Below are positions 6,917 to 22,244 of a stretch of DNA of 46,259 nt, in pieces. The position numbers and the translations under genes are program-made. The DNA is from an uncultured Caulobacterales bacterium (GTDB lineage: Bacteria; Pseudomonadota; Alphaproteobacteria; Caulobacterales; Caulobacteraceae), in the NCBI GenBank assembly GCA_903858685.1, contig CAIOJR010000190.1, positions 1 to 46,259 on the forward strand, given 5' to 3'. The notes beneath the pieces were generated by a model that saw only the letters and a list, made by a program, of their open reading frames with translations, made no database searches and had not been told where the DNA came from. Each line of letters opens with the position of its first letter. The first letter of the stretch is position 1.

Positions 6917-7882
6917 TCAAGGCAGACTGACGACGCCCGCCTCGCCGTCTTCATCGCCATAGGCCACCTGTTTGCCGTCGGGCGACATGGCCAGCGCCGT
7001 GATCTGGGCGCCCTTTTCGGCCCTGATCTCATGAACGCCGGTCACGTCAAGATCGGCGCTGAACACACGCCCATCCGCCCGACCCCAGGTCAGGCGCGGC
7101 AGGCCGGATGCGCCGGCGCAACGAACGACCAGCGCGCTTTCATCCACATCGATCTCGACGGCTTCGCGACCCATCGGTCCATTAGCGCCGGCAAAGGGCC
7201 AGATCACCACGCCCGGTCCGCCCGAAGTGGCCATCAGCGCGCCCTTGGCGATAAAGACCATGGAGCGAATCTTGCCCGGATAGCCCGCCATGCGCATGTC
7301 CTTCGCATCCGACAGGCGCCAGCCATGAAGGGCGTTTTCCTGCATCGCCGACAGCACAAATTTGCCGTCCGGACTGAAGGTCACACCCGTATGGGCGCCC
7401 GGCCATTTCAGCATTTGCGGCTTCTGTTCGGCGATCCGCGCGAACCACAACAGAACCCCGCCATAGCTGGCGACGGCGATCTTGCGGCCCTTGGGATCGA
7501 AAGCCACGTCAGCAACGGTTCGATCGTGGCGGAAACGCCGCTCGAAAGACGCATCCCGGGCGTCCCGCACGATCAGGTCGCGACCCGCCGCCAGGGCGAT
7601 CAGGCCGCTCTGGGGACTTGCCGCCACAGCGTCGATCCACTTGCCGCCGATGTTGCAAAGCTCGACCGCGCCGGACCTGCGCGACCAGACAAGCCGACCA
7701 TCGTCGCCGCCGGTAATGATCCCGTCCCCGTCGGGGTGTAGGGCTGCGCTCAGCACGACGCCCTCGTGGGCCTGAACAACCTCGCCGGTGTCGAAACGGA
7801 CGGACCCGTCGCCCAGCGCAAAGACAGCGCCGTTACGGTCGAACAGGGCGGAAGCCACATAGGCGTGAAAAGATATCTGCAT
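6917..7882 (-). CDS. WD40-repeat beta-propeller protein
   Basis: A 321-residue protein built from degenerate WD40-type blades. Repeat landmarks recur roughly every 40 residues: AALHPDGDGIITGGDDG, DVAFDPKGRKIAVAS, VTFSPDGKFVLSAM and ALAMSPDGKQVAYGDEDG, each ending in a W/F-x-R or comparable strand. No signal peptide, membrane segment or enzymatic domain is present, so it is probably a soluble cytoplasmic scaffold. Single-domain WD40 proteins of this size are found in many alphaproteobacteria next to core genes, and I know of no characterised function. The gene is convergent with mtgA and divergent from the exbD-type gene across a 218-base interval. Confidence 0.8.
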   Translation of the reverse strand: MQISFHAYVASALFDRNGAVFALGDGSVRFDTGEVVQAHEGVVLSAALHPDGDGIITGGDDGRLVWSRRSGAVELCNIGGKWIDAVAASPQSGLIALAAGRDLIVRDARDASFERRFRHDRTVADVAFDPKGRKIAVASYGGVLLWFARIAEQKPQMLKWPGAHTGVTFSPDGKFVLSAMQENALHGWRLSDAKDMRMAGYPGKIRSMVFIAKGALMATSGGPGVVIWPFAGANGPMGREAVEIDVDESALVVRCAGASGLPRLTWGRADGRVFSADLDVTGVHEIRAEKGAQITALAMSPDGKQVAYGDEDGEAGVVSLP

Positions 7883-8034
7883 AAAGGCCCGATACCCCCC
7901 CTCGACCCTGCTTGCCTAGTGTGCATCGCTTGTGGCATGCGATTGCTCACAGGGTGGCAAGCGGGACCAAGGCGCCTGAAACCGGAGCATCCGGTCTTCG
8001 CGCAGCGGAATCCGGCTTTACAACCGCTCTATTC

Positions 8035-8061
8035 GAGGCGATCAATCGCTCGAGTTTTTTT
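8035..8061 (+). terminator. terminator-like hairpin in the exbD leader
   Basis: A short stem, GAG(G)CGA / TCGCTC with loop TCAA and one bulged G (8035-8051), is followed after GAG by seven T residues (8055-8061). The structure lies 39 bases before the exbD start codon, although no plus-strand gene lies upstream that would need a terminator: the neighbour on the left is on the minus strand. A second hairpin, ACCGGA-GCA-TCCGGT, sits at 7981-7995. It could be an attenuator in the exbD leader or the end of a small RNA. The stem is short, so the call is tentative. Confidence 0.4.
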
Positions 8062-8100
8062 GAAGAGCCGCCAAAGGCGCGGCATGGGAGACGCTTACAG

Positions 8101-8553
8101 ATGGCGGCTAAGCTGTCCGGTCCCGGTGGTGGGTCCAAGTTCGATCTGGGTCAGAACTCAGAAATCAACGTGACGCCCTTCGTGGACGTCATGCTTGTTC
8201 TGCTGATCATCTTCATGGTGACCGCACCGTTGGCGACGCTGTCGATCAAGCTCGACCTGCCGCCTGCGCAACCGGCCAACCCCAACACGAAGCCCAAGCC
8301 CCCGACGATCATCAACCTGCAACAGTCGGGCAATATCTTCATCGGCACGGGCCCCAACACCCATTCCACAACGGTTGACAATGTCATTACCGATGTGCGC
8401 GCTGAGTTTGCAGCCAGCAAGAATGACACCGTGTTCATTCGCGCTGACAAGCACGTGAAGTACATCGAGTTCATGACCATTGTGAACAAGCTTCAGGACG
8501 CCGGCATCTTCAAGATCGCCCTGATCACCGAAGACCTGTCCAACGAAACCTGA
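8101..8553 (+). CDS. exbD: ExbD/TolR-family proton-channel subunit
   Basis: A 150-residue inner-membrane protein of the ExbD/TolR family. After a short cytoplasmic tail there is a single transmembrane helix (about residues 27-47) carrying the essential Asp29 in NVTPFVDVMLVLLIIF, then a periplasmic domain with SIKLDLPP and FIRADKHVKYIEFM. With an ExbB/TolQ partner it converts proton-motive force into movement of TonB or TolA. No exbB, tonB, tolQ or tolA gene is adjacent, so this is an orphan copy whose partner must be elsewhere. The ATG at 8101 is chosen because the in-frame extension to 7912 reads through the leader with no homology. It is followed by a strong terminator. Confidence 0.9.
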   Translation: MAAKLSGPGGGSKFDLGQNSEINVTPFVDVMLVLLIIFMVTAPLATLSIKLDLPPAQPANPNTKPKPPTIINLQQSGNIFIGTGPNTHSTTVDNVITDVRAEFAASKNDTVFIRADKHVKYIEFMTIVNKLQDAGIFKIALITEDLSNET

Positions 8554-8580
8554 TCGGACGGGTCCGATCACGAAATACCG

Positions 8581-8611
8581 ACCCCGCTCTGGAAACAGGG
8601 CGGGGTTTTTT
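8581..8611 (+). terminator. Rho-independent terminator after exbD
   Basis: A near-perfect hairpin: ACCCCGC at 8581-8587 pairs with GCGGGGT at 8600-8606, a T-G wobble and CTG/CAG continue the stem, and GAAA forms a tetraloop. The run TTTTTT (8606-8611) follows directly. It lies 28 bases after the exbD stop. Confidence 0.92.
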
Positions 8612-8633
8612 GCGTCTGTTGTCAAACGGGCCC

Positions 8634-8668
8634 AAGAAAAGGGCGGGCTGTCACATGGCGGCCCGCCC
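8634..8668 (-). terminator. Rho-independent terminator after asd
   Basis: On the minus strand GGGCGGGC (8668-8661) pairs with GCCCGCCC (8648-8641) around a 12-base loop, followed by TTTTCTT (8640-8634). It starts 27 bases beyond the asd stop and stands back to back with the exbD terminator, insulating two convergent genes. Confidence 0.88.
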
Positions 8669-8695
8669 TGAGTGTGTCACGCAAACAGGTCTGGA

Positions 8696-9724
8696 TTAGC
8701 GGCGGATCAGGTCTCGCTCATCCAGCAGCTGGGCGATCTGGACGGCATTGAGCGCGGCGCCCTTGCGCAGATTGTCCGACACGACCCACAGGTTCAGACC
8801 GTATCTCACGGTCGGGTCCTTGCGAATCCGGCTGACGAATACGCCGAACTCGCCCACGCATTCCTTTGGTGTGATGTAGCCCGTCGGCTCGTGCTTGTCG
8901 ACCACGACCACGCCGGGCGCTTCGCGCAGGATGTCGCGAGCATCGTCCGCATCCAGTTCGCTTTCAAACTCCAGGTTCACCGACAGGGAGTGGCCGACAA
9001 AGACCGGCACCCGAACACAGGTCACGGTCAGGGCGATGTCGGGGTCCACCATCTTGTGGGTTTCCTTCCACATCTTGGACTCTTCATCAGTGTAGCCGTC
9101 GTCCTGGAAGGCGCCGATGAAGGGGATGACGTTGAAGGCGATCTGCTTTGGGAATTTCTTCGGCTCCGTCGGCCCCAGCACGAATACGCCCTTGGCCTGA
9201 TCCCACAGCTCGTCCATCCCCTCCTTGCCCGCGCCGGACACGGACTGGTAGGTCGATACGACCGCGCGCTTGATCCGGGCCGCATCGTGCAGCGGCTTGA
9301 TCGCCACGACCAGCTGCGCGGTGGAGCAGTTGGGATTGGCGATGATGTTCTTCTTGTGCGCCCAGGACACGTCGTCCGGGTTCACCTCCGGGACGATCAG
9401 CGGCACGTCGGGGTGTTGACGCCAGGCTGACGAATTGTCGATCACGATGGGGCCGGCCGCGCCGATCTTTTCCGACCAGGCCTTGGATACAGCGCCGCCC
9501 GCCGACATCAGGACGAGATCGGTCTGGCTGAAATCAAAGTCATCGAGCGAGACGCATTTGAGAATTCGATCGCCATAGGCGACTTCCTTCCCGACCGATT
9601 TTCGCGACGCCACCGCGTGAATCTCGTCCACCGGGAACTGCAGTTCCTCAAGGATGTTCATCATTTCTCGGCCCACATTGCCCGTGGCGCCGACGACCGC
9701 TACGCGGTAGCCCATGGTCTTCAT
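8696..9724 (-). CDS. asd: aspartate-semialdehyde dehydrogenase
   Basis: A 342-residue NADPH-dependent enzyme that converts aspartyl phosphate to aspartate semialdehyde, the branch point to lysine, diaminopimelate, threonine and methionine. The Rossmann motif is VGATGNVGREM (residues 11-21), and the nucleophile Cys133 sits in NPNCSTAQL. ASRKSVGKE, NPDDVSWAHKKNIIANPNC and VSTYQSVSGAGKEGMDEL match the proteobacterial enzyme. The ATG at 9724 has GGAG 6 bases upstream; an alternative start at 9715 would remove only three residues. It is cytoplasmic and, through diaminopimelate, also serves peptidoglycan synthesis. Monocistronic, with its own terminator. Confidence 0.96.
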   Translation of the reverse strand: MKTMGYRVAVVGATGNVGREMMNILEELQFPVDEIHAVASRKSVGKEVAYGDRILKCVSLDDFDFSQTDLVLMSAGGAVSKAWSEKIGAAGPIVIDNSSAWRQHPDVPLIVPEVNPDDVSWAHKKNIIANPNCSTAQLVVAIKPLHDAARIKRAVVSTYQSVSGAGKEGMDELWDQAKGVFVLGPTEPKKFPKQIAFNVIPFIGAFQDDGYTDEESKMWKETHKMVDPDIALTVTCVRVPVFVGHSLSVNLEFESELDADDARDILREAPGVVVVDKHEPTGYITPKECVGEFGVFVSRIRKDPTVRYGLNLWVVSDNLRKGAALNAVQIAQLLDERDLIRR

Positions 9725-9806
9725 CTCCGTTATCGGTCAAAAGGCGACCGAAAAAGCGGCGAACGCCTAGCCCCTATGGGCGCTTAAAGCAAGGCGGCGC
9801 CTCGTC

Positions 9807-10370
9807 TTATCCTGCCTTGGCGCTCAGCCATTGCTCCCGAGTCTGGCCATAGAGGTCGATGGTGCGATCCAGCGGCGCGGGCAGGCGGGCCTCGCCGATG
9901 CGCTGTGACCCGATGCGAAGCGCTACCGCGATAGAGGCGGAATTGGCTGGATCAATGGAGTGAATCATCTCGTTCCAGCCCAGGGTTTCAAAAGCGTAGT
10001 CCCGCGCAGCAGCCACACCTTCGGTCGCATAACCCCTGCCCCAGGCGTCGCGCGACAGGCCCCAGCCGATCTCATTGCCGGGCCAGCCCTCAGGTCGCCA
10101 GGGGCCAAGCCGCCCGACCCAGCGCCCGGACGCCTTTTCGATGACGGAAAACATTGAAAAGCCCATGATCGACCAGGCGCCGACGACGCTGGTCATGTTG
10201 CGCCACGCCATCATGGGCGGGGTCACGCCGCCGATGAAGCGCATGGTCTCTTCATCCGCCATCGAGGCGGACCAGGCGGGGAAGTCCGACGCCTGGGGCA
10301 TGCGCAAAATGAGCCGCTCTGTCTCCAGAACGGGGACGCTGGCGCTGCTGATATGACCTGTGCGCTCCAT
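9807..10370 (-). CDS. GNAT-family N-acetyltransferase (RimJ/RimL-like)
   Basis: A 187-residue acetyltransferase. The N-terminal strand is ETERLILRMPQASDFPAW, followed by a long central part and the acetyl-CoA pyrophosphate loop RDAWGRGYATEGVAAA. The last motif, YAFETLGWNEMIHSID then NSASIAVALRIG, is typical of the Acetyltransf_3 branch that modifies N-terminal residues of proteins or small amines. Start 10370 (MERTGH) is chosen because AGGAGAAGG lies about 9 bases upstream; an in-frame frame opens at 10418 without a ribosome-binding site. Substrate unknown. It stands alone, between asd and a divergent MAPEG gene. Confidence 0.86.
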   Translation of the reverse strand: MERTGHISSASVPVLETERLILRMPQASDFPAWSASMADEETMRFIGGVTPPMMAWRNMTSVVGAWSIMGFSMFSVIEKASGRWVGRLGPWRPEGWPGNEIGWGLSRDAWGRGYATEGVAAARDYAFETLGWNEMIHSIDPANSASIAVALRIGSQRIGEARLPAPLDRTIDLYGQTREQWLSAKAG

Positions 10371-10485
10371 GGGCGCCTTCTCCTGCTGCGCGGCCTTCAT
10401 GTCACGCCGGCGATGCAAAGATGCTACTTAGGTCCCGCGTCTGGCAATGCTAGGAATGCTGAATCGAGGCGATCGGAGAGAACGC

Positions 10486-16117: not shown

Positions 16118-17134
16118 TCACCAGCGCTGCGCTTGCCGGCGCGCTGACATACGCATCAGCACCTCCTCAGCCGCCCGCTCGGTCTCTTTCAGCGGCGCAT
16201 AGGCCCAGCTCTCGATGCGACCTTCAAACGGTCTGGTGACGCCGCGACGGGCCAGATCGTCCAAAAACTGCCGTCTGCGCGGCTGACCGCCGTCCATGGC
16301 CAGCATATAGACCGGCGCGCCAGTGGCGGCGGCTTCGGCTGGCATGTTGGCGGAATCCTCTGTCACCAGTACAGCGTCGGCATAGCCCAGAAAACCAAAG
16401 AAGGGATTTGGACCCTGGTCGTTCCAGATCATGCCGGGCAGGCCTGACAGGCGCTGTTGCAATATGTCTCGCGCCCGGGCGGGCGTGCGCCGTGAAAAGG
16501 TCAGCATGAGCGACCCGCCGCAGGCGCGGATGGCGCGCTCAATATCGTCGGCCATGGTCTCGGCGCGTCGCGGGCTCAGATCATAGGCCCTGGCCTTGCC
16601 GCCGATCAGGGCCGCCACACGTGGGCGCGGAAGTGCAGCCAGACTGTCTGCAAAGGCCTTGCGTCCTTCTTCCAGTCGCCCTTCCGAGACACGATGCGGC
16701 GTGCCGGTGATGGCGAACACATTGGGCCCGCTCAGCTTGTCATGCGCTGGCGGGATGACCAGATCGAACAGCCGGGCAGGACGGACCGGGTCCTGCATCT
16801 GCACCACGAAGGTTTGACCTCCTGACCATCGCCGCACCGCGATCGACAGGGGAATGGAGGCTCGGCCATTGGCGATCCACAGGTCGGGCCATGGCGGCGC
16901 GAGGGCTTCCGCCCCCCTTGCCAGCAAACCGCGCAGGCCGGGCATGAGTCGCGACGGCGCACGTCGCATCCAGACGGGCCAGGCGATCTGCTTGCAGATG
17001 ATCTCGGCGGCGACCCGGCGCGCAACGGCTTCGGCAAGCCCCAACGCCTGGTTTTCGATCCCGGCGCGACCGTCGCTGACGACCCAGATCGTCAACGGCC
17101 GGCCGGGGGTTGGCGTCGCGCCGTTCAGATCCAC
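16118..17134 (-). CDS. ELM1/GtrOC1-family protein (DUF1022)
   Basis: A 338-residue protein of the family named for plant ELM1, a mitochondrial fission factor; in bacteria it has a two-lobed glycosyltransferase-B-like fold. Motifs: [20 protein letters not shown] at the N-terminus, [59 protein letters not shown] and the C-lobe nucleotide-sugar-like site [20 protein letters not shown]. No signal peptide. The start at 17134 overlaps the greA stop region by 10 bases on the same strand, so the two are co-transcribed. A role in surface-glycan or lipid-linked sugar metabolism is suggested by fold and by the pseudaminate genes 600 bases away, but is inference. Confidence 0.83.
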
Positions 17135-17598
17135 TCGACCTTGATGATTTCGTAGGCCTTGACGCCCGCAGGCGTGATCACCTCGAACACATCCCCGGCG
17201 GTCTTGCCGATCATGCCACGCGCCAGAGGCGAGGTCAGGGACAGGCGTCCCTGCTTCACGTCAGCTTCGTGCTCGCCGACCACCTGGTAGCGGGCCTCTT
17301 CTTCAGTGTCTTCGTCGAGCACGGTCACCGTGGCGCCGAATTTCACCTGGGCGCCGGATAGCTTGGACACGTCAATGATCTGTGCGCGGCTGATCTTATC
17401 CTCGATCTCCGCGATTCGACCTTCGATCCAGCCCTGCCTTTCCTTGGCGGCGTGGTATTCTGCGTTCTCAGAAAGGTCCCCATGGCTGCGGGCTTCGGAG
17501 ATAGCCGCGATTACGGAGGGACGTTCCACCGACTTGAGTCGCTTAAGTTCTTCGTCGAGGGATTTGTAGCCCTCGCCGGTCATCGGCACTTTTTCCAT
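17125..17598 (-). CDS. greA: transcription elongation factor GreA
   Basis: A 157-residue factor that reactivates backtracked RNA polymerase by stimulating transcript cleavage. The N-terminal antiparallel coiled coil (residues 1-75) carries the acidic tip Asp41 and Glu44 in [15 protein letters not shown]; the C-terminal FKBP-like domain has [19 protein letters not shown] and [14 protein letters not shown]-type residues. Start 17598 (MEKVPMT) matches alphaproteobacterial homologues. The last 10 bases are shared with the downstream ELM1-family gene. The 189 bases upstream (17599-17787) hold no gene and must contain the promoters of greA and of the divergent pseG. Confidence 0.97.
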
Positions 17599-17787: not shown

Positions 17788-18828
17788 ATGACGAGCGCCA
17801 TGACAACGCCTTTGAGAGATCTGTCAATTCTGCTGGCTCCGGCCTCTGGTCCCGGCGTGGGCGGTGGTCACGTGATCCGCTGCCTGACCCTTGCGGAAGC
17901 GCTGGCGGCGCGCGGCTGTGAATGCCGTTTCGCCGTCACGTCGGCGGGAGAGGACCTTATTGCGAGGTTCCGGCCCGACTGTTTCCCAATCCTGCGGCTG
18001 GATCCGCCCGATCGGCTGGCCCAAGCGGTTGCGCAGGCGGGCTGTGACGGTCTGGTGGTCGATAATTATGCGCTTGATGCCGAGGCGGAAGCGCGCCTTG
18101 GCCAGGCGGTGCGTCGTGTGATGGTCATCGACGATCTGGCCGACCGGCGACATATGGCCGATCTGGTGCTTGATCCCGGTTACGGCCGCACGCCGGACGC
18201 CTATGTCAGGCTGGCGCCGGGGGCGGTGGTCCTGGCCGGGCCGGACTATGCCCTGGTCCGGCCCGCCTTTCGCGAAAGGCGCCCTGCGTCTGCGAGCTGC
18301 CGGGACAAGGCGCTGCGGATCATGGTCTCCTTTGGGCTGGCCGATCCGGGAGAGATTGCGCGCCGCGCCGTGGTCCTGCTGCTCGCCCATGCGCCGGAGG
18401 CGGTGCTGGATGTGGTGCTGGCTTCAGACGCGCCCAGCCGACCTGCTCTGGCCCGTCTTGCGGCGCAGGACCATCGCGTTCAGCTGCATCTGGACGTCGC
18501 CGATGTCGCTGCGATCATGGCGCGTTGTGATCTGTGCGTCGGGGCGGGCGGCTCCAGCGTGTGGGAGCGGGCGGTGGTCGGCCTGCCCAGTCTTGTGGTG
18601 GTGGTGGCCGACAACCAGCGAGACCTGGCCCGTCAGCTGTCGTCGGACGGCTATTGCGCCATGGCCGACCTCGCCGATGCTGATTTTGAGGCGCAGTTCT
18701 CAGCCGCGCTTGAAGGCCTCAAGCCGCCGCATGTGCGGTTGACCATGGCTGACGCCGCCATGGCGCTGTGTGATGGTCTGGGCGCCGAGCGGGCGGCGGA
18801 TGCGTTCGTGACCCTGCTGCGGACCTAA
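17788..18828 (+). CDS. pseG: UDP-2,4-diacetamido-trideoxy-altropyranose hydrolase PseG
   Basis: A 346-residue GT-B-fold hydrolase that removes UDP from UDP-2,4-diacetamido-2,4,6-trideoxy-L-altrose, the fourth step to pseudaminic acid. The N-terminal motif GGGHVIRCLTLAEAL contains the catalytic His (His28). Other family landmarks are VVDNYALD, VMVIDDLADR, the segment GPDYALVRPAFRE and the C-lobe CVGAGGSSVWE. Start at 17788; an ATG at 17800 is equally possible and neither has a clear ribosome-binding site. It is convergent with pseH, sharing CTAA at 18825-18828. In Caulobacter the corresponding flagellin-glycosylation gene is called flmD (from memory). GC and codon use resemble its neighbours, so recent transfer is not evident. 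Confidence 0.9.
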   Translation: MTSAMTTPLRDLSILLAPASGPGVGGGHVIRCLTLAEALAARGCECRFAVTSAGEDLIARFRPDCFPILRLDPPDRLAQAVAQAGCDGLVVDNYALDAEAEARLGQAVRRVMVIDDLADRRHMADLVLDPGYGRTPDAYVRLAPGAVVLAGPDYALVRPAFRERRPASASCRDKALRIMVSFGLADPGEIARRAVVLLLAHAPEAVLDVVLASDAPSRPALARLAAQDHRVQLHLDVADVAAIMARCDLCVGAGGSSVWERAVVGLPSLVVVVADNQRDLARQLSSDGYCAMADLADADFEAQFSAALEGLKPPHVRLTMADAAMALCDGLGAERAADAFVTLLRT

Positions 18829-19397
18829 TCGGGCCTGAACCGGGCGGGCGCCGTCCCTCTGGCCTGAAAGCGCGCCAGAGCAGCGTCACGGGCGGCAGGC
18901 CAGTCCCGGGCCAGCATGCCAAGCCCCACGACGTCGCGACCCCGGCCTGACTTGATCACATGGTCTCGGAACAGGGCCTCACGGGTGAAGCCGAACCGCT
19001 CATGCAATGTCCAGACAGCTTCATTCTCCACCAGCACTTCGCACCACAGCCTGTTCAGTTTCAACGTCTCGAAGACGTGACTGAGCATGGCGAACTCGAC
19101 CGCCTGACCGACGCCCTGACCGCGCGTGGCGGGATCGGCCAGATAATAGGCCCACTCACAGCGGCGGTTGACGAGATCGATCCGCGCCAGATTGGCAAGG
19201 CCCACGCCTGCGCCGTCCAGTTCGATGACCCAGAAGGCCCGGTCCGGCAGGCGGAGCGCGGCGGCGAGCCATGTCTGGTGTTCGGCCAGCGTGATCTGAT
19301 GGTCGGAATACATGTAGGGCGCCACGGCTTCGCTGTTGCGCCAATCCAGCACCTTGGGGCCGTCAGCGGCGGTCAGGGGGCGAAGGATGACGCTCAT
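18825..19397 (-). CDS. pseH: PseH-type N-acetyltransferase
   Basis: A 190-residue GNAT protein. The N-terminal RPLTAADGPKVLDWRNSE and PYMYSDHQITLAEHQTWL, followed by ANLARIDLVNRRCEWAYYL, are features of PseH, which acetylates the 4-amino group of UDP-4-amino-4,6-dideoxy-N-acetyl-L-altrosamine to give the PseG substrate. The acetyl-CoA loop is DPATRGQGVGQAVEF; LNRLWCEVLVENEAVWTLHE follows. Its start overlaps the stop of the nucleotidyltransferase gene by ATGA, and the C-terminal stop overlaps convergent pseG. The Ala/Arg-rich last 20 residues look unstructured. PseH function is strongly supported by the neighbours. Confidence 0.88.
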   Translation of the reverse strand: MSVILRPLTAADGPKVLDWRNSEAVAPYMYSDHQITLAEHQTWLAAALRLPDRAFWVIELDGAGVGLANLARIDLVNRRCEWAYYLADPATRGQGVGQAVEFAMLSHVFETLKLNRLWCEVLVENEAVWTLHERFGFTREALFRDHVIKSGRGRDVVGLGMLARDWPAARDAALARFQARGTAPARFRPD

Positions 19398-20116
19398 CGG
19401 GGCGCCGGCGCATCCGGATCGTGCGGCAGGGCAAGGTCTGGATGCTTCACCTGCCAGGCCGATATGTCGTCCAGCCGAAAGTCCGGCTTTTGCGGATATA
19501 GCCCTTCATAGACGGCGGTGACGAAGGCGAAGTCGGCGGGGACGTCCACAGTCCAGCGCCAGCGCAGCGGCGGATCACGACGCACCTCGCCAATCCGGAA
19601 CTGTTCGGGATGGCGATAGATGTAGGGCGTGACATGCTCGCGCTCATAGGGGTCGCGGGCGGTGTTGAAGGCGGCTTCCAAGGCCGTGATCTGACACACC
19701 TCGACATCCAGCCCCTTGGGAAACGTCCAGCCGGGGGAGTTGTGGGTATAGTCGTAGCCGCCGGCCAGATGATGCGCGATGCACTGATCCACCACGTCGG
19801 GATCCGCGAGCGGGCAATCGGCGGTCAGCCTCAGGAAGGTGTCTGGCCGTCCTGCGCTGTTCAGCGCGCCCATGAATCGCCCGAGAACGTCGTCAAGGTC
19901 GCCTCGATAGAGGCCGACACCCAGGGTCCGCACATAATCGGCCAACAGATCGTCCAGCGGATCTGTGCTGGTGGCCACGATGATCCGCGACAGCCGTCGC
20001 GCGCGTTGCAGGCGTTCGATCTGGCGCCCGATCATGGGCTGGCCCAGAAGCGGCTTCATGACCTTGCCCGGCAGTCGGCTGGAGCTCATGCGCGCCTGAA
20101 TGATCGCGACCGTCAT
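19394..20116 (-). CDS. SpsF-type nucleotidyltransferase, probable CMP-nonulosonate synthetase
   Basis: A 240-residue member of the SpsF/FlmC branch of cytidylyltransferases. The N-terminal nucleotide-binding motif is AIIQARMSSSRLPGKVMKPL, differing from the IPARGGSKR motif of NeuA/PseF. Further: IIVATSTDPLDDLLADY, YRGDLDDVLGRF, the metal-binding RLTADCPLADPDVVD, and WRWTVDVPADFAFV. By position in the cluster it is the only candidate to activate pseudaminic acid as CMP-Pse. Caulobacter FlmC is, as I recall, of the same type. It follows the dioxygenase gene with one spacer base and overlaps pseH by ATGA, so the three form one transcription unit. Substrate specificity is inferred. Confidence 0.82.
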   Translation of the reverse strand: MTVAIIQARMSSSRLPGKVMKPLLGQPMIGRQIERLQRARRLSRIIVATSTDPLDDLLADYVRTLGVGLYRGDLDDVLGRFMGALNSAGRPDTFLRLTADCPLADPDVVDQCIAHHLAGGYDYTHNSPGWTFPKGLDVEVCQITALEAAFNTARDPYEREHVTPYIYRHPEQFRIGEVRRDPPLRWRWTVDVPADFAFVTAVYEGLYPQKPDFRLDDISAWQVKHPDLALPHDPDAPAPR

Positions 20117-20117
20117 G

Positions 20118-21059
20118 TCAGGCCTGATTGACGGCGTTGTGCTTGATCCGGGCTGCGCCAGCAGCGTTGAGATCTTCGCGGGTGGCGGGCAGGATCACAG
20201 GCCAGTCGATCGATTCATTGACCCTGTCCAGACCATTGGGGGCGCCGCCGCCACGAGTGAGCAGATAGCGTAGGGAAATGCGCTCATGATCGGCCACGTC
20301 TGGCTGGGTGCCGTGCAGGGTGCAGCCATGCCACATGCCTGCAAATCCCGCACCGCCGGTCAACATGACCTGCTGGCAACCCATGGCGGGCCGACCGGGC
20401 GCGGCATAGCGCCAGCTTGCGTCTGCATTGCGGGTCAGATCATGCGGAAAGACGGTGGCGCCCAGCTTGTGGCTGCCTTCGAGCAGATAGAGCGGAGCGT
20501 CGCTCGCCGTCACCGGATGCAGATAGACATAGAGGGTGATCATGTCCGAAGCCCGTCCCGGGAAGTCGATCAGATCCTGATGGAAGTCGATCCCGAAGAA
20601 ATAGGTGATGTCGCGATATTGCGGCTTCACATAGGGGCCGAGATTATTCACCGGATTGCCGAGGATGCGCGCCTTCAGCCAGTCCGGAATGGTCGAGGCG
20701 GGCACGCCGCAGACCAGCTTCTTGTCCAGCAGGCTGTAGCCCTGTCCCAGGAGTGCGGCGAGGGCGGAGACGATCTGCGGGTCCTGTTCGACAAAGCCCA
20801 GCATATGGTCGTATTTTTCAAGAAGGTTGCGACCGGGCCTTGGGTTGACGCCGCGATAGAGCGGGTCGGCGTCGAACTCGGCCTCTGAAAGAAACAGGTC
20901 GCCATCGAAGCTCCGCTCGTTGCGCACCGCTGTTAGCAGGGCCTCCGCCGCCACCGGATCCAGAGCGCGGGGATAGAGGTGATAGCCGGTAGCCATAAGG
21001 TCTGTGAGCGCGGGATGGTCCGCCTCTGGGCTGCTTGGCAGTGGCGCGGCGATGGTCAT
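20118..21059 (-). CDS. phytanoyl-CoA dioxygenase (PhyH)-family protein
   Basis: A 313-residue Fe(II)/2-oxoglutarate dioxygenase fold. The facial triad is visible: His160 and Asp162 in GIDFHQDLIDFPGR, and a distal His (His249, or His244) in MWHGCTLHGTQPD, with the oxoglutarate-binding Arg264 in ERISLRYLL. YLLEGSHKLGATVFPHD is the conserved core strand. Start 21059 (MTIAAP) has AGGAGG 5 bases upstream; the open frame to 21473 lies antisense to pseI. It leads an operon with the SpsF-type nucleotidyltransferase and pseH, so the expected substrate is a nonulosonic acid, its precursor or the glycan. No PhyH step is part of the textbook pseudaminate route, which makes the gene the outlier of the cluster. 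Confidence 0.85.
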   Translation of the reverse strand: MTIAAPLPSSPEADHPALTDLMATGYHLYPRALDPVAAEALLTAVRNERSFDGDLFLSEAEFDADPLYRGVNPRPGRNLLEKYDHMLGFVEQDPQIVSALAALLGQGYSLLDKKLVCGVPASTIPDWLKARILGNPVNNLGPYVKPQYRDITYFFGIDFHQDLIDFPGRASDMITLYVYLHPVTASDAPLYLLEGSHKLGATVFPHDLTRNADASWRYAAPGRPAMGCQQVMLTGGAGFAGMWHGCTLHGTQPDVADHERISLRYLLTRGGGAPNGLDRVNESIDWPVILPATREDLNAAGAARIKHNAVNQA

Positions 21060-21176: not shown

Positions 21177-22244
21177 ATGAGCCTCCCACACAGCCAGAAA
21201 ATTGACATTGCCGGTCGTCAAATTGGTCCGGGTCAGCCGCCTCTGATCATTGCCGAGCTCTCGGGAAACCATAATGGCGATCTGAACCGGGCGCTGCGGT
21301 TGATCGACGCCTGCGCCCGGGCGGGCGCCGATGCTGTGAAGCTCCAGACCTACACCCCAGACACCATCACCATCGACCATGACGGGCCGGGCTTTCGACT
21401 GGAAAGCGGCCTTTGGGCCGGGCGCACCCTGTACGACCTCTATGGCGAGGCCTTTACGCCCTATGAGTGGCACGAGGCGCTATTCGACCACGCCCGCGCT
21501 CAGGGGCTGATCATACTGTCCTCGCCCTTTGACGAGACAGCGGTGAGTCTTCTCGAGGGATTGGACGCGCCCGCCTTCAAGATTGCTTCCTTCGAGGTGG
21601 TGGATCTGCCGCTGATTGCGCGCGCCTCGCGCTCGGGCCGCCCCTTGATCATCTCGACAGGCATGACGTCGCTTCAGGAGATTCGGGAGGCTGTTGACAC
21701 CGCCCTGCAGTCAGGCGCCGGCGGCGTTGCGCTGTTGCATTGCGTCAGCAGCTATCCCGCGCAATTTTCAGACGCCAATCTTCGGGCCATACCCAGACTG
21801 GCCGCGGATTTTGATTGTGTTGTCGGATTGTCTGATCACACGCCAGGCACAGCGGCGGCGGTCGCTGCTGTGGCTTTGGGCGCTAAGATCATCGAAAAGC
21901 ATGTGACCCTGGCCAGAGCGGATGGCGGGCCGGACTCAGCCTTCAGTCTGGAGCCTGCGGAGCTGAAGGCCTTGGTGCAGGATTGCCGCAACGCCTTTGA
22001 CGCCCTTGGCGCCGGCGACTACCGCCGCGGCGACGATGAAAGCGCCAATCGGCAGTTTCGCCGGTCGATCTATGTGGTCCGCGATGTCGCAGCGGGCGAC
22101 GTCCTGACGTCGGACGACGTGCGGTCCATCCGCCCGGGCTTTGGGCTCGCGCCGCGCTACCTGCCGGACCTGATCGGTCGCCGTGCGGCTCGCCCTTTGC
22201 TACGGGGCGAGCCGACGAACTGGACCATGATTGAACCGGATTGA
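21177..22244 (+). CDS. pseI: pseudaminic acid synthase PseI
   Basis: A 355-residue NeuB-family condensing enzyme that joins phosphoenolpyruvate to the 2,4-diacetamido-altrose released by PseG. The TIM barrel has IIAELSGNHNGDLNRAL, GADAVKLQTYTPDTIT, LSSPFDETAVSLLE, FKIASFEVVDLPLI, ISTGMTSLQEI and VGLSDHTPGT, with metal and PEP ligands among them. A C-terminal SAF (antifreeze-like) domain begins near residue 290 (FRRSIYVVRDVAAGDVLTS). Spacing between barrel motifs resembles PseI rather than sialate or legionaminate synthases, though those cannot be excluded by eye. The gene is divergent from the dioxygenase operon over 117 bases, a probable shared promoter region. Confidence 0.88.
   Translation: MSLPHSQKIDIAGRQIGPGQPPLIIAELSGNHNGDLNRALRLIDACARAGADAVKLQTYTPDTITIDHDGPGFRLESGLWAGRTLYDLYGEAFTPYEWHEALFDHARAQGLIILSSPFDETAVSLLEGLDAPAFKIASFEVVDLPLIARASRSGRPLIISTGMTSLQEIREAVDTALQSGAGGVALLHCVSSYPAQFSDANLRAIPRLAADFDCVVGLSDHTPGTAAAVAAVALGAKIIEKHVTLARADGGPDSAFSLEPAELKALVQDCRNAFDALGAGDYRRGDDESANRQFRRSIYVVRDVAAGDVLTSDDVRSIRPGFGLAPRYLPDLIGRRAARPLLRGEPTNWTMIEPD

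Follow-up and report, generated by a model that had tools for sequence, protein, structure and literature searches.

Why does a gene for a PhyH-family oxygenase lie among the genes of pseudaminic acid (Pse) synthesis, a pathway to which no such enzyme is usually assigned? The question is raised by contig CAIOJR010000190.1 of assembly GCA_903858685.1, from an uncultured Caulobacterales bacterium; this contig, 46,259 nucleotides long and hereafter the window, is a complete contig of the Caulobacteraceae genome G000. Our analysis showed that the PhyH gene is a recurrent accessory of the Pse pathway. On balance, we take its product to be an accessory Fe(II)/2-oxoglutarate (2OG) oxygenase of that pathway, which would act in the cytoplasm and most likely hydroxylates the nonulosonate before transfer. 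The substrate would be the nonulosonate itself, as free or CMP-activated Pse or as the immediate UDP-linked precursor, and the outcome would be a surface glycan bearing oxidised Pse.

The genes concerned, with the NCBIfam equivalog cut-offs whose passing defines the PseH, PseG and PseI calls, are the following.

20118..21059, minus strand: predicted PhyH-family Fe(II)/2OG oxygenase, 313 amino acids (ATG at 21057-21059, stop at 20118-20120)
19394..20116, minus strand: SpsF-type cytidylyltransferase, probable CMP-Pse synthetase (CTP_transf_3; far under the TIGR03584 PseF cut-off)
18825..19397, minus strand: PseH N-acetyltransferase (TIGR03585, 155.7 bits against a cut-off of 93.1)
17788..18828, plus strand: PseG UDP-sugar hydrolase (TIGR03590, 229.1 bits against a cut-off of 153.55)
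21177..22244, plus strand: PseI pseudaminic acid synthase (TIGR03586, 471.2 bits against a cut-off of 340.25)
16118..17598, minus strand: flanking genes of the ELM1 family and GreA

The PhyH gene is the first of the SpsF-PseH unit and lies in the divergent spacer, 117 bp from pseI, with AGGAGG directly 5' of its ATG; the three genes have PseG and PseI on either side, both on the opposite strand. A single base (20117) separates the PhyH stop from the SpsF ATG (20114-20116), and an ATGA at 19394-19397 is shared by the SpsF stop and the PseH start, both as described in the original prediction, made from the sequence alone. The interval given there, 19394-21059, holds PhyH and SpsF together, the PhyH gene alone being 20118-21059. 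A longer open reading frame with a GTG start (451 amino acids, to 21473) was rejected, since it extends into pseI and is unnecessary.

Recurrence of this adjacency beyond the one genome, a check proposed with the original prediction, was found. The best 80 of 107 relatives were taken as named loci, from which L105 was dropped because of a broken frame, leaving 79. In a strict count by tblastn thresholds, 24 of the 79 had PseI, PseG, PseH, PseB, PseF or SpsF no more than 5 kb away, while seven others had only a gene joining tetratricopeptide repeats to a GT41 domain (TPR-GT41) and six only a second PhyH or a TylF-type gene. DegT aminotransferases (cluster 8 and the FdtA-DegT fusion), tried as PseC, fell under the PseC cut-off and were left out of this count. 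When such below-cut-off DegT genes and GT41 were included, 34 of 80 loci (with the window) were linked, 31 of them within 500 bp; in the 43 loci with full flanks, this wider gene set gave 31 matches in the first 2 kb and then 6, 0, 5 and 4 per bin, one of them overlapping. By a rough reckoning that assumes three Pse clusters per 4-Mb genome, an estimate rather than a measured control, chance would link about 1% of loci.

The strict PhyH-SpsF-PseH triad is rare, being repeated in one of the 79 other loci, L094, where PhyH (56% identical to that of the window) is followed after 7 bases by SpsF, which overlaps by GTGA a PseH above its cut-off. In the other linked loci, PhyH is near pseI, pseG, pseH or a TPR-GT41 gene. 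In L154, PseI, SpsF, PhyH, PseG, ELM1 and GreA stand together in an order unlike that of the window and without PseH, and in L148 (genus g3) PhyH is near PseH, PseI and PseB, all above cut-off. The linkage extends to the most distant relatives. In Nostoc paludosum (L109), the genes PseB, methyltransferase, PseC, SpsF, PseG, PhyH, PseH and PseI follow one another on one strand; PseB, PseC, PseG, PseH and PseI are above the NCBIfam cut-offs, and the PhyH and PseH reading frames overlap. PhyH is 2.5 kb from PseH in L108, from a metagenome-assembled genome (MAG) labelled Inquilinus, and 4.6 kb from PseC in G914, a genome of the Nostoc phylum (both Pse genes above cut-off), so that all three homologues outside the Caulobacteraceae lie within 5 kb of a Pse gene. 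On a tree of the named loci, from which the short L107 was excluded, the label 'Pse' has to switch five times or more. Nearest to the midpoint root stand Nostoc, the Inquilinus-labelled MAG and two Asticcacaulis, all of them Pse-linked, although this root is uncertain because L108 and L109 have long branches. Because these deepest rows are all linked, the tree suggests that the association of PhyH with Pse genes is old and was later broken in some clades.

The gene is largely a Caulobacteraceae one. Of 299 Caulobacteraceae genomes sampled, 78 have an orthologue (E<=1e-24, 46-67% identity), after weak matches in G202, G252, G275 and G284 (E>1e-4) had been dropped from an initial 82. In the phylum sample, 4 of 398 genomes matched at E<=1e-20, all of them Caulobacteraceae, and in the sample of the Nostoc phylum 2 of 244 matched, one being the Nostoc (G323) itself. 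The named relatives belong to Caulobacter, Phenylobacterium, Brevundimonas, Asticcacaulis and unplaced MAGs, together with L108 and L109, and the strains with the gene beside Pse genes include Asticcacaulis currens DXS10W and Nostoc paludosum FACHB-159. Matches in G036 and G043, from other families of the order (E 6.6e-5 and 5.8e-4), were rejected as orthologues and taken as paralogues; no reference Pse gene was found in the 16-20 kb around them. The search of plasmid and phage sequences gave no PhyH homologue. Two loci labelled Klebsiella pneumoniae (L093) and Acidobacteriaceae (L058) have a PhyH that groups with the Caulobacteraceae on the tree, and these MAG contigs are probably mislabelled or misbinned. 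Broken or split copies, at frame breaks or contig ends (L009/L014, L010/L016, L011/L015 and L105), are either errors or decay.

Carriage of PhyH is also associated with that of the Pse synthase. Among the sampled Caulobacteraceae, PseI above cut-off was present in 74 of the 78 carriers and in 118 of the 221 non-carriers (Fisher p 7e-13, which overstates the association because the genomes are related); the carriers without a strong PseI are G060, G067, G289 and G316. Stratification by genus, on genomes with a listed genus and therefore without 43 PseI-negative genomes (G289 among them), gave an odds ratio of 13 and a Cochran-Mantel-Haenszel chi-square of 13.8. In genus g21, PseI was found in 2/2 carriers and in 0/11 listed non-carriers, in g3 in 2/2 and 7/38, and in g1, the genus of the window, in 2/2 and 1/4, respectively. 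In a set of 60 relatives, all 11 carriers had PseI above cut-off, compared to 24 of the 60 overall.

Comparison with two genomes of the same genus, G004 and G005, revealed an empty site. Both have PseG-PseH-SpsF-PseI in the order of the window and no PhyH between SpsF and PseI, and G004 has no PhyH match in its genome. Their PseH and SpsF are 67-73% identical to those of the window, so these two enzymes look alike with or without PhyH, which fits a tailoring step that was added to the pathway.

The protein itself fits the PhyH family. It matches Pfam PhyH (PF05721) over residues 57-260 with 28.3 bits, modestly above the cut-off of 22, and no named NCBIfam family. In an alignment of 40 sequences, the others 46-66% identical to it, the HxD...H iron triad of H160, D162 and H249 is invariant, in agreement with the ligands named in the original prediction. 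R264, proposed there as the 2OG ligand, is likewise invariant, as are R260 and S262; R260 is more likely to be the 2OG-binding arginine because it lies 11 residues past the distal histidine, which we take to be the usual PhyH spacing (H264/R275 in PAHX). R49, R77, K114, R149, D150, H206 and R294 form a conserved set of the family's own, invariant in the same alignment.

The AlphaFold model (mean predicted local distance difference test score 90.4, predicted template modelling score 0.89) has the PhyH-type double-stranded beta-helix fold. Foldseek matched it to 323 PDB chains at E<=0.001, with SnoN at the top and GriE, PHYHD1, PAHX, KanJ, AviO1 and SnoK among the others, and the VIA structure comparison gave Z values of 15-16.5 to PhyH-fold enzymes. 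Sequence searches of the PDB gave nothing specific, whether by phmmer (two other chains at E 0.22-0.23 and PAHX at E 0.85) or by profile (GriE at E 0.0066).

Several observations weigh against a dedicated role in the Pse pathway. No scored gene was found in 42 of the 79 named loci, some of which are on short contigs; many Caulobacter copies of PhyH have FadB on one side and acyl-CoA dehydrogenase genes on the other, and those of one Phenylobacterium set adjoin sulfatases. The genome of L094 (G067, 85% complete, in 430 contigs) has PseI matches below cut-off only (E 7e-91). In g7 and g22, the two largest genera with PhyH, nearly all listed genomes have PseI, with or without PhyH, so co-occurrence says little there. 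The PhyH of G005 is on another contig, off its Pse cluster, with a flagellin gene some 3 kb away. Finally, 118 of the 192 genomes with a strong PseI lack PhyH, which makes it an accessory rather than a core enzyme, dispensable for making Pse.

A first alternative is that Pse is not the substrate and that the enzyme works once transfer has taken place, or on a different part of the glycoconjugate such as a DegT-made aminosugar or a flagellin residue. A TPR-GT41 gene lies within 5 kb of PhyH in 18 of the 79 named loci, genes often met nearby are those for DegT aminotransferases under the PseC cut-off, a flavin monooxygenase (FMO) and a TylF-type O-methyltransferase, and the flagellin gene near the PhyH of G005 points the same way. 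Against this, the Nostoc genome G323 has no Flagellin_N match and yet has PhyH inside its Pse cluster; G000 has flagellins but no GT41 (PF13844) match, and no match to MptE-like/Maf (PF01973), a weak control in that the four matching control genomes are all archaea. The retrieved flanks of the three homologues outside the Caulobacteraceae gave no GT41 match, while each has a Pse gene. The acceptor machinery thus varies while the sugar pathway is constant, which favours the sugar or a nucleotide-bound precursor as substrate, and we consider action elsewhere on the glycoconjugate unlikely.

A second alternative makes a small acyl donor the target of hydroxylation, the hydroxyacyl group then being added to Pse by a PseH-type transferase; Pse would end up oxidised without being the enzyme's substrate. 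The position of PhyH is consistent with this, since it adjoins or overlaps the SpsF-PseH unit in the window and in L094 and overlaps PseH in Nostoc, as are the presence among the fold matches of human PAHX and PHYHD1 (phytanoyl-CoA hydroxylase acts on acyl-CoA) and the linkage to FadB and acyl-CoA dehydrogenase in one Caulobacter clade. However, the PseH proteins of G004 and G005, from Pse clusters without PhyH, are 70-73% identical to that of the window and so give no sign of a changed acyl specificity. Nor is PseH always the neighbour: many loci have PseI, PseG or a GT41 gene closer to PhyH. An acyl donor as the substrate is improbable on these grounds.

We regard as very unlikely that a general lipid or detoxification enzyme came to lie beside Pse genes by chance or hitch-hiking. 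The loci without scored genes, and the clades in which FadB/acyl-CoA dehydrogenase or sulfatase genes are the neighbours throughout, would fit it. The 'Pse' label, for all its changes on the tree, is nevertheless found on the deepest rows; Pse genes lie near all three homologues outside the Caulobacteraceae; and the distribution of PseI in g21 follows that of PhyH. Least probable of all is a 2OG-dependent reaction on Pse other than hydroxylation (epimerisation, desaturation or ring closure), to which SnoN (titled an epimerase), SnoK (a carbocyclase) and AviO1, PhyH-fold enzymes with non-hydroxylating chemistry on other glycosides, lend a fold likeness at 14-17% identity, a level at which the fold ranking says little on chemistry because PhyH enzymes share their fold.

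Of the two outcomes offered in the original prediction, an oxidised nonulosonate or an enzyme acting on a glycan or lipid acceptor, the first is therefore the best reading, given the triad of L094, the Nostoc cluster and the presence of PseI in nearly all carriers; a lipid acceptor is hinted at by the gene neighbourhood of one Caulobacter clade. A wider proposal is more tentative, and we put it at somewhat under an even chance: that this is a dedicated family producing an undescribed Pse, hydroxylated on the ring or the N-acyl group, in Caulobacteraceae and some cyanobacteria, and that some lineages extend the product to an O-methylated nonulosonate by means of a second PhyH and a TylF-type methyltransferase. 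Many bacteria carry Pse on their flagellins and surface polysaccharides. If the proposed hydroxylation takes place, the nonulosonate repertoire is broader than the standard route predicts, glycan mass searches restricted to known masses would miss the modified Pse, and an enzyme would be available for making modified nonulosonates.

Comparison with known systems showed precedents for the parts of this proposal. PAHX and PHYHD1 share the Pfam family, the HxD...H iron site and the fold of the window PhyH, whose sequence match to PAHX is weak and whose family differs in its own conserved set and its linkage to sugar clusters. SnoN, SnoK, KanJ and AviO1, of the same fold, are a precedent for PhyH-fold enzymes acting on sugars, but their substrates are antibiotics. 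CMAH, the CMP-Neu5Ac hydroxylase, is a Rieske-type iron-sulphur enzyme of a different family, and would be an analogue if the N-acetyl group of Pse were the target.

KdoO uses Fe(II), 2OG and O2 to oxidise Kdo, an ulosonic acid, at its 3-deoxy group (PMC8533242); it is a functional precedent, alike in principle, which acts on Kdo in the assembly of the lipopolysaccharide core. It is not among the fold matches listed for the window PhyH, an absence that says little on kinship. The flagellin Pse system of Caulobacter (FlmA/B/H/D/NeuB/FlmC-FlmG) has the same Pse enzymes as the window cluster, and the main text of its description never mentions a dioxygenase (PMC7591256); G000 has no PF13844 match. 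A Shewanella nonulosonate with an O-methylated addition has been reported in a paper from whose available text the word 'oxygenase' is absent (PMC3765264). Our search of the open-access literature, which left most subscription literature outside its range, found no description of a Pse-linked PhyH oxygenase.

Other features of the neighbourhoods were also noted. The cytidylyltransferase is of the SpsF type and not the PseF equivalog both in the window (19394-20116) and in Nostoc (L109), consistent with the report that FlmC of C. crescentus has no homology to PseF (PMC7591256). SpsF is at the same place in the Pse clusters of L109, L165 and L166, and L101 has a true PseF instead. G000 has a second, weaker NeuB-family synthase (G000:C39:19007-19798, E 7e-56, under the PseI cut-off), perhaps for another nonulosonate.

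A cassette of a second PhyH and a TylF-type O-methyltransferase was found in L034, L036, L059, L063, L064, L068, L084, L093, L108, L153 and L173, directly downstream of the first PhyH in 8 of these 11 loci, and is possibly a hydroxylation-methylation module. The six loci with PhyH, the second PhyH and TylF, together with the Pse-bearing L084, L093 and L108, suggest further O-methylation in some lineages.

The TPR-GT41 gene, O-GlcNAc-transferase-like and often adjoining PhyH, is present within 5 kb in L031, L037, L053, L077 and 14 other named loci. Its product may be an FlmG-like glycosyltransferase of flagellin; the label FlmG itself was dropped, there being no NCBIfam name for it. An apparent PhyH-GT41 fusion in L155 (an 895-amino-acid open frame, 7756-10443) was rejected and not counted as such: the PhyH C-terminus departs from the family ending shortly ahead of the GT41 start, which a one-base frame difference explains more simply. 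The FMO-like gene lies between PseI and PhyH in L031, L038, L039 and L043 and 2-4 kb downstream in L036, L059 and L068, and the ELM1 and GreA genes flank Pse genes in L154, L155, L166, L173 and L175 as they do in the window.

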